64,000 bases of DNA from contig DVIW01000008.1 in NCBI GenBank assembly GCA_018710945.1, positions 1 through 64,000 of the forward strand. Reading direction: 5' to 3'. The notes under the pieces are model-generated. The model did no database searches. It was not told the origin of the DNA and saw only the letters and a list, made by a program, of their open reading frames with translations. The stretch is from Candidatus Aphodovivens avistercoris. GTDB lineage: Bacteria; Actinomycetota; Coriobacteriia; Coriobacteriales; Eggerthellaceae. Within the stretch, counting starts at the first letter, position 1. Each line of letters opens with the position of its first letter. The translations under genes and the position numbers were made by a program. Shown piece by piece: positions 26,651-55,398 of this stretch.

Positions 26651-26955
26651 GTGCGCTCCATCGCTTCAAGGGACCCGGCGGGCCCCGCTCATCTTGCTTC
26701 GAGGACCGCGCGCCCGCGCTTTCGCGCCGAGACCGCGCAGCCCCGTCTTTCTGCGACTGCGAGCTTATCACACCCGCCGCCTCGCCCGCCCGCCCCCGCC
26801 CCGATCGCCACACAAACAGGCGAAGCCACACCGGCGGGGCGCAGTGTGGCGGCGCGGCAACGCGGCGGGGCAATGGAGCGTCGGGGCGATGCAGCGACGC
26901 GGCGGCAGGCGAGACGACGGCACAGAAGCAGTCCGGACGCCCCTCCCTTTCCGCG

Positions 26956-27014
26956 CATCGTCGTTCCTTTCGCGCGTAAAATGCGCCATCGAACGCGCGA
27001 AATGGACGAAGATG
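26956..27014 (+). repeat. Intergenic hairpin element, copy A
   Basis: Arms 26956-26977 and 26993-27014 (19 of 22 pairs) with a 15-nt loop. The core is CTTTCGCGCGT / ACGCGCGAAAT. Followed on the right by GTGTTCCC and preceded by the C/T-rich CCCCTCCCTTTCC. Confidence 0.85.
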
Positions 27015-27112
27015 TGTTCCCGGGGCTACCAATCGCGAACCAACAAGCGAGCGATCGCGAAACCGGCACGCAAGCACCCCTCCTCCCCTTCCCCACCCAT
27101 CCCCCATTCGCA

Positions 27113-27171
27113 CATCCTCGTCCCTTTCACGCGCCAAACGCGCCGCAAGACGCGCGAAAGGGATGACGATG
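27113..27171 (+). repeat. Intergenic hairpin element, copy B
   Basis: Arms 27113-27134 and 27150-27171 with a 15-nt loop. The core is CCCTTTCACGCG / CGCGCGAAAGGG. Right flank GCGTTCCCAGCGCCCAGCC; left flank is a long C-rich tract. Confidence 0.8.
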
Positions 27172-27446
27172 CGTTCCCAGCGCCCAGCCGAGCCACCAAC
27201 GACCAAAGACCCGCGAAAACGACACTCAAGCATGTCAGCGTGCATATCGGGCAGCACACGAACTCGCATGAAGCGGCGTTCCCACTGCGTGCGCCCCCGA
27301 AACGCGCCTGCCGAAAACCTTTCCGACCTGCAAGGATGTTGCGCAACATTCGCTCTCTTCCGCTTGTGCTTTCATAGCTTCAGCGCATGCTGCGCGCTCG
27401 GAAACGCGCCGCGCTGCTCAGAGAACCTCGAAAAAGGAGGAAACGT

Positions 27447-28229: not shown

Positions 28230-28347
28230 CCAGCGCATTCGACGCGCTTGAGCCTCTCTGCGCTTGCGGCGAATGCCAAATGGCTGTCTTCGCCGCAAGC
28301 GCTTCGTCTCTCTCTCCCTTCCCTACCCTCGCCTTTCCCCTTCCGCG

Positions 28348-28406
28348 CATCGTCGTCCCTTTCGCGTGCCAAAAGCACCCCCGGACGCGCGAAAAGGACG
28401 CGGATG
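28348..28406 (+). repeat. Intergenic hairpin element, copy C
   Basis: Arms 28348-28369 and 28385-28406, 15-nt loop. The left arm has TCGTCGTCCCTTTCGCGTG, the right ACGCGCGAAAAGGACGCG. Right flank CGTTTCTAGCGCCCAACCGA resembles that of copy B. It lies between the lipoprotein stop and the SixA-CHAD promoter; the rest of 28230-28490 shows nothing more. Confidence 0.82.
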
Positions 28407-28490
28407 CGTTTCTAGCGCCCAACCGAGCCTCCAAACGCAAGCGCCCCGCCCCATTCCCCATCGCTTCGGTAACGGGCTTGGCGCGAGGGG

Positions 28491-30081: not shown

Positions 30082-30351
30082 ATGGGACTGTTCGACGGCA
30101 AAACCGAGGAAGAGAAAGCCTACGAGCGCGTGGCCAAGGCCCTTGACCAGCTGCGCATCCAAGAATCCGACGGGAAGCTGCACGCCGGCATCTTCGAGAT
30201 AAGCGGCCTGGCCGACTGCGGAGCGGCATCGGCCACGCTCAACGGCGTGCTGGGCTTTCTGCAGGAGAAGGGCCATGAGATCGCGGACGTGAAGATCTCC
30301 GACAGCGGCAACGCCACCCTGGGCATGAAGATCCTCGTGCTCTACCGCTGA
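30082..30351 (+). CDS. Small conserved-looking protein of unknown function
   Basis: An 89-residue soluble protein, MGLFDGKTEEEKAYERVAKAL at the start, with AAAGGAAACCGC before the ATG. No signal peptide or membrane helix. The fold is probably helix-helix-strand, with a closing SDSGNATLGMKILVLYR strand. It follows the SixA-CHAD gene by 59 nt on the same strand, possibly co-transcribed. Not recognised. Confidence 0.75.
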   Translation: MGLFDGKTEEEKAYERVAKALDQLRIQESDGKLHAGIFEISGLADCGAASATLNGVLGFLQEKGHEIADVKISDSGNATLGMKILVLYR

Positions 30352-30530
30352 CGCCAGCGCGCCATCAGGAAGCACGCCCCCGCACCCAAAAGGACGCATG
30401 AGACGGCGGCTGCGGCGACAAGCGCGGCAAGCGGCAGACCAGCCGATGCAGCCGCCGCCATCACAACGCCAAACGCGAACGAGGCCCATTCGTAGCCGAG
30501 AACGGACCCGCGCCCGAAAGACAGGCGCAC
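30342..30530 (-). CDS. Possible two-helix small membrane protein
   Basis: A 62-residue frame from GTG 30530, with two hydrophobic helices (about residues 14-33 and 36-54) and a basic C-terminus MARWRQR. It overlaps the end of the preceding plus-strand gene by 10 nt. The upstream GACGAG is a weak ribosome binding site. It could also be a chance frame in Ala-rich DNA. Confidence 0.35.
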   Translation of the reverse strand: MRLSFGRGSVLGYEWASFAFGVVMAAAASAGLPLAALVAAAAVSCVLLGAGACFLMARWRQR

Positions 30531-30568
30531 CTCGTCGTGTCGCCGATATCGAGCGGCGCGTTGCCCTC

Positions 30569-30671
30569 ATTCCAATCCACGCAGTCCTCCGTGGGACTGC
30601 GACGCGGTCCTCGCGGGTCGGGTCGATCCACTCGTAATTTCAATCCCCGCAGTCCCCCGCGGGACTGCGAC
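30569..30671 (-). CRISPR. Two-repeat orphan CRISPR, type I-C-like repeat
   Basis: Two 35-nt repeats (30637-30671 and 30569-30603) agree at 31 of 35 positions and enclose one 33-nt spacer (30604-30636). On the minus strand the repeat begins GTCGCAGTCCC and ends GATTGAAAT, with an internal stem CAGTCCC / GGGACTG, the pattern of type I-C repeats. The copy nearest the leader matches the consensus end; the distal copy is degenerate (ends GATTGGAAT), as expected for a terminal repeat. No cas gene is in the window. A promoter lies on the leader side at 30698-30726. Confidence 0.8.
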
Positions 30672-30697
30672 CGCAACATGTTGCGTTGCTGGGCTTT

Positions 30698-30726
30698 ACT
30701 ATATCCCGTATCTTGCGGCAACGCAA
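30698..30726 (-). promoter_or_regulatory. Predicted CRISPR leader promoter
   Basis: Minus-strand -35 TTGCGT (30721-30726), 17-nt spacer, -10 TATAGT (30698-30703), directed into the array. Between it and the first repeat is the perfect palindrome CGCAACATGTTGCG (30672-30685). The remainder of this spacer up to 30965 shows no gene. Confidence 0.65.
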
Positions 30727-30965
30727 AGGGCGTGCTCGTTCCGAAGCCCTATCTCGGCACCGCGCCGTTTCGTTCTCGGTGCGAACCTTTCGCATGAAAG
30801 CTGATCGCTTGCGACTCGCACCGGGGGGCGCATCGCTCCGTTCGGCCGAACCAACCCCAATCAGCACCCCCTCAACACGTAGCGCACCGCCCCGACCAGT
30901 GCGAACAAGCTATGTACCGCAGCCCAACCCTGCTTCGCGTCCCCGCGCAGCGAGTCTGAACGCCA

Positions 30966-35615: not shown

Positions 35616-35686
35616 GAGCGCCCCTTTCTTTCGTTGTTCCTGCCGCATTCTAGCGAACTGCGGCGCGCGCGGCTGCGACCCTCTTG

Positions 35687-35749
35687 CGAATCCGCGACCG
35701 TTTCGCGCGCAAACCGCGCCCGCGAACGCGCGAAACGGTCGCGGATTCG
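35687..35749 (+). repeat. Intergenic hairpin element, copy D
   Basis: Perfectly paired arms 35687-35710 and 35726-35749 except the innermost pair, loop 15 nt. The left arm begins CGAATCCGCGACCGTTTCGC. Compared with copies A-C, C/G pairs in the outer stem have changed on both arms. It separates the YxeA-like gene from the response regulator gene within the same gene run. Confidence 0.9.
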
Positions 35750-35818
35750 TTCGGGGACGCGAACGCGCGGGCGAGCCACGCGCTGCCAGTCCCCGCGCGC
35801 CGTCCGCGCGCCTGCTGC

Positions 35819-49195: not shown

Positions 49196-49319
49196 CTTCG
49201 CCGGCCCTTTGCCAACCCTCAGCGGCCCCTTGGCAAACCTCCTCCAAACCTTCGCCGGCCCTTCGCTGGACCCTTGCCGGCCCCTTCCGCATCCCTTCGC
49301 CAGCCCTTCCCGCATTCCG
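49196..49319. repeat. Degenerate tandem array of about eleven 10-13-nt units
   Basis: Units such as CTTCGCCGGCC, CTTTGCCAACC, CTTCGCTGGACC, CTTGCCGGCC and CTTCGCCAGCC follow each other with a period near 11 nt. Consensus CTTCGCCGGCC. It ends 8 nt before hairpin copy F. Confidence 0.65.
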
Positions 49320-49327
49320 CCTTCTTC

Positions 49328-49386
49328 GATCTTCGTCCTTTTCACGCGTCTGACGGCTTGCGGAACGCGCGAAAGGGACGAAGATC
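49328..49386 (+). repeat. Intergenic hairpin element, copy F
   Basis: Arms 49328-49349 and 49365-49386, 15-nt loop. Left arm GATCTTCGTCC, core TTTTCACGCGT / ACGCGCGAAAG. The C/T-rich tract to its left is here a tandem array. Confidence 0.82.
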
Positions 49387-49651
49387 CGCGCACGACGGAA
49401 GCTGCGCCTGCCGGGAACGAGCGCAACGCCCCCCATCGCCGGCAAACGCCGCACCCACCCCATCGACGACGAACGCTGCGCTCGGCGCACCCACCGCGCT
49501 CGTCCGACACACCCGTCGCGCTCATCCGACACACTCGTCACGTCATCCGGCACGCCCGCCGCGAAAAGCCGTTGCAGCGCACCTTGCACGGCCTGCAAGC
49601 CGTCTGCGCCGCAAGGCGTTCCTCATCGCCCATCGCCCAGTAACGCTTTTT

Positions 49652-55053: not shown

Positions 55054-55080
55054 GACCCCTTCCTTTTCGCAACCCTTCGG

Positions 55081-55143
55081 CAGATCCGCGACCGTTTCGC
55101 GCATCTGGAGCCCCTTTGAGCGCGCGAAACGGTCGCGGATTTG
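55081..55143 (+). repeat. Intergenic hairpin element, copy G
   Basis: A perfect 19-bp stem (55084-55102 with 55122-55140) plus outer pairs; the loop is 19 nt. The left arm reads ATCCGCGACCGTTTCGCGC, the same outer-stem variant as copy D. Confidence 0.9.
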
Positions 55144-55398
55144 CAGAAGCGCCGCCCGACACGCGACTTTACCCCGATTTTGCACGGCGGCGGCCATCCG
55201 CGCGCAGCGGCTTTGGTATGTTGGAGGGCAGTCGAAAACCACGCGAGCGCAGCCCCTGCGCCAGCGCGAACGCGGTCCACGGCCGCGCCTTCAGACGCCG
55301 GCCGCAACGCAGCCGCAGGCGCCGCCCGCAGCCCGAAGCCGCGGCGCGCCCGCAAGCGTCACCCGAACGCAGCCCGCCCGCGGCCGAAAGGAGCAGCC

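Follow-up and report, generated by a model that had tools for sequence, protein, structure and literature searches.

A one-spacer type I-C CRISPR array linked by its leader to a distant cas operon is probably a satellite array

Results

A minus-strand array of two repeats and one spacer

The stretch of DNA analysed here, 64,000 nt long and hereafter called the window, carries on its minus strand a leader (read from 30822 to 30672), followed by a leader-proximal repeat (R1), a single spacer and a leader-distal, partly degenerate repeat (R2) (Table 1). The two 35-nt repeats, at 30569-30603 and 30637-30671, are spaced 68 nt apart and identical at 89% of their positions, and the degeneracy of R2 affects its handle. 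The array agrees with type I-C in its repeat ends (GTCGC...GATTGAAAY) with a stem, in a spacer length within 32-38 nt and in the I-C leader lying upstream of the first repeat; cas genes, which are usual but not required next to such an array, were not adjacent to it. In 100 dinucleotide-preserving shuffles of the window, no pair of 35-mers at CRISPR spacing reached 31/35 (the best shuffle gave 27/35), and R1 and R2 were the sole pair to do so in the real window. The original prediction had described two repeats around one spacer, type I-C-style ends, a minus-strand orientation with a leader, and degeneracy of the leader-distal copy, and all of this was confirmed.

R1 folded into a stem of 10 bp, one of them a terminal U-G pair, at -19.8 kcal/mol, and none of the shuffles was equally stable. 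R2 retained an 8-bp stem at -14.2 kcal/mol, and the repeat of the main array of the same genome (see below) folded at -17.6 kcal/mol. The window repeat was present in exactly two copies within the 2.45-Mb genome. No copies were found in 99 related genomes, and the repeat pattern had no match in ~85,000 species genomes (a set in which its own genome is perhaps not included) or among IMG/VR viral contigs.

Directly downstream of the array, a membrane-like open frame of ~71 aa (30345-30557, minus strand) was observed. It has neither a clear start nor a good match to any family and may be what is left of a truncated gene. The window also contains six copies of a dispersed ~81-nt repeat of inverted-repeat character, at least some of them intergenic.

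Table 1 Positions of the array, its leader and other features discussed in the text
Feature	Position	Strand	Sequence	Remark
Whole leader	30672..30822	-		Promoter expected within, putative
45-nt palindromic element	30778..30822	-	GGTGCGAG-N26-AGGTTCGCACC	Starts 151 nt upstream of R1
Leader-repeat junction motif	30672..30685	-	CGCAACATGTTGCG	From alignments and junction table
R1, leader-proximal repeat	30637..30671	-	GTCGCAGTCCCGCGGGGGACTGCGGGGATTGAAAT	
Single 33-nt spacer	30604..30636	-	TACGAGTGGATCGACCCGACCCGCGAGGACCGC	
R2, leader-distal repeat	30569..30603	-	GTCGCAGTCCCACGGAGGACTGCGTGGATTGGAAT	Partly degenerate, 31/35 vs R1
Dispersed repeat, ~81 nt	26938-27018, 27095-27175, 28330-28410, 35671-35751, 49310-49390, 55065-55145			
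cas2-side array	L012:8614-8712 (contig C26)			Own leader, usual cas2-side position
Unlinked I-C array at orthologous position	L316 (G128), L317 (G127)			Two species of one other genus

A leader palindrome in helical phase with the first repeat

The 45-nt palindrome of the leader has the pattern GGTGCGAR-N29-YTCGCACC. Exactly three copies are present in the genome, each array having one upstream, and the pattern was absent from 100 shuffles of the window. A leader covariance model built solely from eight other genera of the family recovered the window copy on the strand of the array with 44.6 bits (E 6e-8), and scored the leaders of the main array and the cas2-side array of the same genome at 49.1 bits and 30.9 bits, respectively. 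The element and the first repeat are 151 nt apart in the window; in 18 other leaders of the family this distance was 147-151 nt, the commoner range, or 159-161 nt.

An exact-pattern scan of ~85,000 genomes for the element returned at least 118 stretches, mostly from Bacillota among the matches listed; an I-C repeat was located at the expected distance for 83 of the 129 matches listed. The distances, again among the matches listed, clustered at ~138, 147-149, 158-163, 168-174, 180-181 and 190 nt. When these 83 arrays were combined with 19 family leaders (102 arrays), the phase coherence at 10.5 bp was 0.67, and jittered sets (n = 5,000) did not exceed 0.28; the set includes related genomes, so that p is inexact, and counting each distinct distance once gave p ~0.001. 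The element therefore looks like a DNA motif that is kept in helical phase and serves in spacer integration, and from its spacing in whole helical turns we infer that a protein binds this DNA in alignment with the site of integration. A reading of the leader hairpin as RNA structure was dropped, because the spacing follows helical turns and inspection by eye revealed no compensatory changes in the arms; an Rfam search of the element returned nothing credible. The loci with the conserved element (window 30778-30822, L013, L016-L028 and L198-L315) belong mostly to Bacillota and the family of the window.

At the other end of the leader, the palindrome predicted to abut the first repeat was verified and coincides with the conserved leader-repeat junction, whose counterpart in the leaders of related I-C arrays is roughly CAATATRTTGCG and at which Cas1-Cas2 would integrate. 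Beyond the 45-nt palindrome and the junction, the leaders of the window array and the main array have little else in common. The promoter proposed within the leader (-35 TTGCGT at 30721-30726, -10 TATAGT at 30698-30703) is a weak candidate: no promoter, this pair included, passed a consensus scan, and TTGCGT matches TTGACA at only three of six positions.

A complete type I-C operon and two further arrays in the same genome

The prediction had suggested looking elsewhere in the genome for a type I-C cas operon, and a complete one, cas3-5-8c-7-4-1-2, was found on contig C26, with all seven proteins (Cas3, Cas5c, Cas8c, Cas7c, Cas4, Cas1c and Cas2) above the cut-offs of their NCBIfam models; Cas5c is encoded on the minus strand at L012:13666-14340. 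Searches of the genome with Csd1 and Cas1 gave matches on contig C26 alone; the statement that cas genes are lacking is thus right for the window and wrong for the genome. Beyond the operon lies the main array, with 72 copies of a 33-nt repeat and spacers of 32-38 nt. A two-repeat, one-spacer array with degenerate repeats, which looks to be decaying, and a hicAB toxin-antitoxin pair are placed between cas2 and the main array, the small array being the one on the cas2 side. With a complete operon and two more arrays carrying the same leader in its genome, the window array is not the 'orphan' it had been called. Contigs C26 and C43 share the same composition, and hence neither looks like contamination.

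The suggested search for further arrays with the same repeat found none, the two copies in the window being the only ones in the genome, and the main repeat differs from the window repeat in its stem sequence and in length (33 vs 35 nt). Absence of I-C cas genes or of a matching repeat elsewhere had been put forward as evidence against the prediction: the first did not occur and the second did, which is moot because of the leader homology. The link to the cas system of C26 is made by shared leader architecture, not by a shared repeat.

Unlinked arrays in related genomes

The leader model detected further arrays away from the I-C cas1 in related genomes. A four-repeat degenerate array was found in genome G128, 184 kb from its cas-linked array, and an eight-repeat array with the same leader was found in genome G127 at the orthologous position, with flanking blocks 87-93% identical on both sides of the array. 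The only Cas1 match in G127 lies 166 kb away and is weak, with E 2e-26 where the I-C matches reach ~1e-100. The orthology indicates that speciation need not remove an unlinked I-C array, and, with no strong I-C-like Cas1 in G127, such an array can apparently outlast the adaptation genes.

A decayed unlinked array was present in a third genome, G134; there, as in the window, an ABC/regulator/kinase stretch of five genes is located ~2.3-2.4 kb upstream of the leader. A single ancestral satellite position was not supported, as the kinase orthologues of G127 and G128 are more than 1 Mb from the satellite arrays. Comparison with two congeners for an empty site found no syntenic locus. The handle base G was considered as a mark of satellites and proved not diagnostic, being present also in a 52-repeat array (L207).

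In another genome (G051), two leader-bearing I-C arrays with different repeats are located 4 kb apart (L318, C3:70000-89900). No Cas1 was found in this genome, and among the genes next to the two arrays are those for a reverse transcriptase and a cytosine methylase.

Spacer target searches

Blastn of the spacer against phages and plasmids gave chance-level matches only, and neither the protein-level pattern of the spacer in IMG/VR nor a PAM+seed pattern search produced a match. Exact matches to viral contigs were obtained with two parts of the spacer, an inner stretch of 19 nt and its first 17 nt; these contigs were rejected as its source, since over all 33 nt only 21-24 positions agreed and no TTC PAM was present. 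Self-targets of the window spacer in its own genome (99% examined) were within the shuffled expectation, as were those of the cas2-side spacer, whose best match lies inside a coding sequence. When the main array was searched against phages, all matches were repeat-like and came from faecal phage records that lack annotation. The open frame of the window spacer had been read as a sign of coding origin; a stop-free frame of 33 nt is expected by chance.

Discussion

Of the three options first offered for the locus, a satellite array served in trans is favoured by the leader kinship and the complete operon on C26. We conclude that the locus is probably a genuine type I-C satellite, and that any service it receives in trans would come from that operon. 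Both repeats keep strong stems despite a sequence unlike the main repeat, and related genomes also have unlinked arrays with this leader. Speaking against this reading are the single spacer, the lack of a target in the phage, plasmid, IMG/VR and own-genome searches, the degenerate handle of R2 and the negative promoter consensus scan. Moreover, Cas5c and Cas1-Cas2 may reject the window repeat, since it is unlike the main repeat and is in no other searched genome. The best reading is a low-activity satellite of a known kind. A survey of multiple arrays reports reduced length for distant arrays in several types, I-C included, and a tendency towards differing repeats where an array is not near cas (PMC12814883); the window array fits both without any special explanation.

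By analogy with known type I-C systems, transcription of such a satellite would begin in the leader, and Cas5c would cut 3' of each repeat stem to leave an 11-nt 5' handle. The predicted crRNA, ~68 nt long and beginning GGGAUUGAAAU-UACGAGUGG, would have the GGGAUUGAAAU handle in front of the 33-nt guide and end in a 3' hairpin contributed by R2. It would load the Cas8c-Cas7-Cas5c Cascade, and the loaded Cascade would recruit Cas3 to a TTC-flanked target, with immunity as the expected result. The leader is sufficiently well kept that insertion of new spacers by Cas4-Cas1-Cas2 would in principle still be possible, and the single spacer and diverged repeat suggest that such addition is rare or has ended.

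The strongest competitor, though a good deal less probable, is a dead relic, in which a formerly active satellite would by now be reduced to a single spacer, with transcription and processing lost. Its one spacer, degenerate end repeat, repeat unlike the main repeat and lack of a promoter consensus would all be explained, and clear decay is seen in the cas2-side array of this genome. The window array has nevertheless kept the palindrome, the phased distance and the junction motif, better than the cas2-side array has, and R1 folds as well as the main repeat. It is unlikely that unlinked leader-bearing I-C satellites constitute a maintained class in the family, with a position fixed over speciation, a repeat of their own and possibly a distinct job; if they do, that job might be long-term memory or host regulation.

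The proposal of a regulatory guide, a short-seed crRNA-like RNA of the CreA or CreR kind that represses a host promoter through Cascade, seems quite improbable. One spacer between two non-identical repeats is indeed the layout of creA of CreTA (PMC8501985). Published creA genes, however, lack a leader and have strongly diverged repeats with little in common (PMC8501985, PMC9458426), whereas the window array has a full leader, repeats that are 89% alike, no seed-matched promoter and no toxin gene recognised among its nearest genes. The creA seed comprises positions 1-5 and 7-11 with a TTC PAM in a promoter, and 10 counted positions were required; the longest TTC-adjacent run in the genome (99% examined) had 7, below most shuffled spacers and thus not above chance. 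No TTC+6 match to the window spacer was found on C26, and the cas promoter was free of seed matches. Because such matches are short, the seed result argues against a guide role without amounting to exclusion; with the leader present and the cas promoter unmatched, a regulatory role is not supported. A phage RNA anti-CRISPR (Racr), a solitary repeat unit in a virus or prophage, was also rejected, as there are two repeats with a leader, no viral contig with the repeat, and recognised neighbours encoding CHAD/phosphatase, GNAT and Fer4 proteins.

Recent import of a foreign repeat type from another lineage or a mobile element is very hard to credit: the repeat type is unlike that of the main array of the host and the handle GGGGATTGAAAT resembles those of unlinked arrays in another genus, but none of the other genomes or viral contigs searched has the repeat, the flanking genes that were recognised are of an ordinary chromosomal kind and the composition is that of the host. 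The palindromic nature of both repeats, common in dispersed intergenic repeats, might speak for a pair of hairpins arisen by chance or for an ordinary dispersed repeat; this reading is refuted by the correctly placed I-C leader, the shuffles and the count of exactly two copies in the genome.

Compared with the C26 arrays and the I-C arrays of other genera, the satellite array in the window shares the 45-nt palindrome, the junction motif, their spacing, the GTCGC...GATTGAAAT repeat layout and the 33-nt spacer, and differs in its 35-nt repeat with a different, longer stem, its one spacer and the lack of adjacent cas genes. Upstream motifs phased with the first repeat are reportedly present in the leaders of some CRISPR subtypes. 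Like such phased leader motifs (Santiago-Frangos et al. 2021), the element described here keeps a constant helical phase relative to the site of integration, and its palindrome matches come mostly from Bacillota and the family of the window. The phasing of the palindrome offers a testable prediction on how such I-C systems locate their integration site. An array that appears as an 'orphan' within a window may also be assigned through its leader to a distant cas operon when its repeat no longer matches. The window array resembles the Cas-distant second arrays of type I (PMC12814883) in being short, distant from cas and unlike the cas-linked array in its repeat, and differs from them in that its link to cas is made via the leader and not via a shared repeat.
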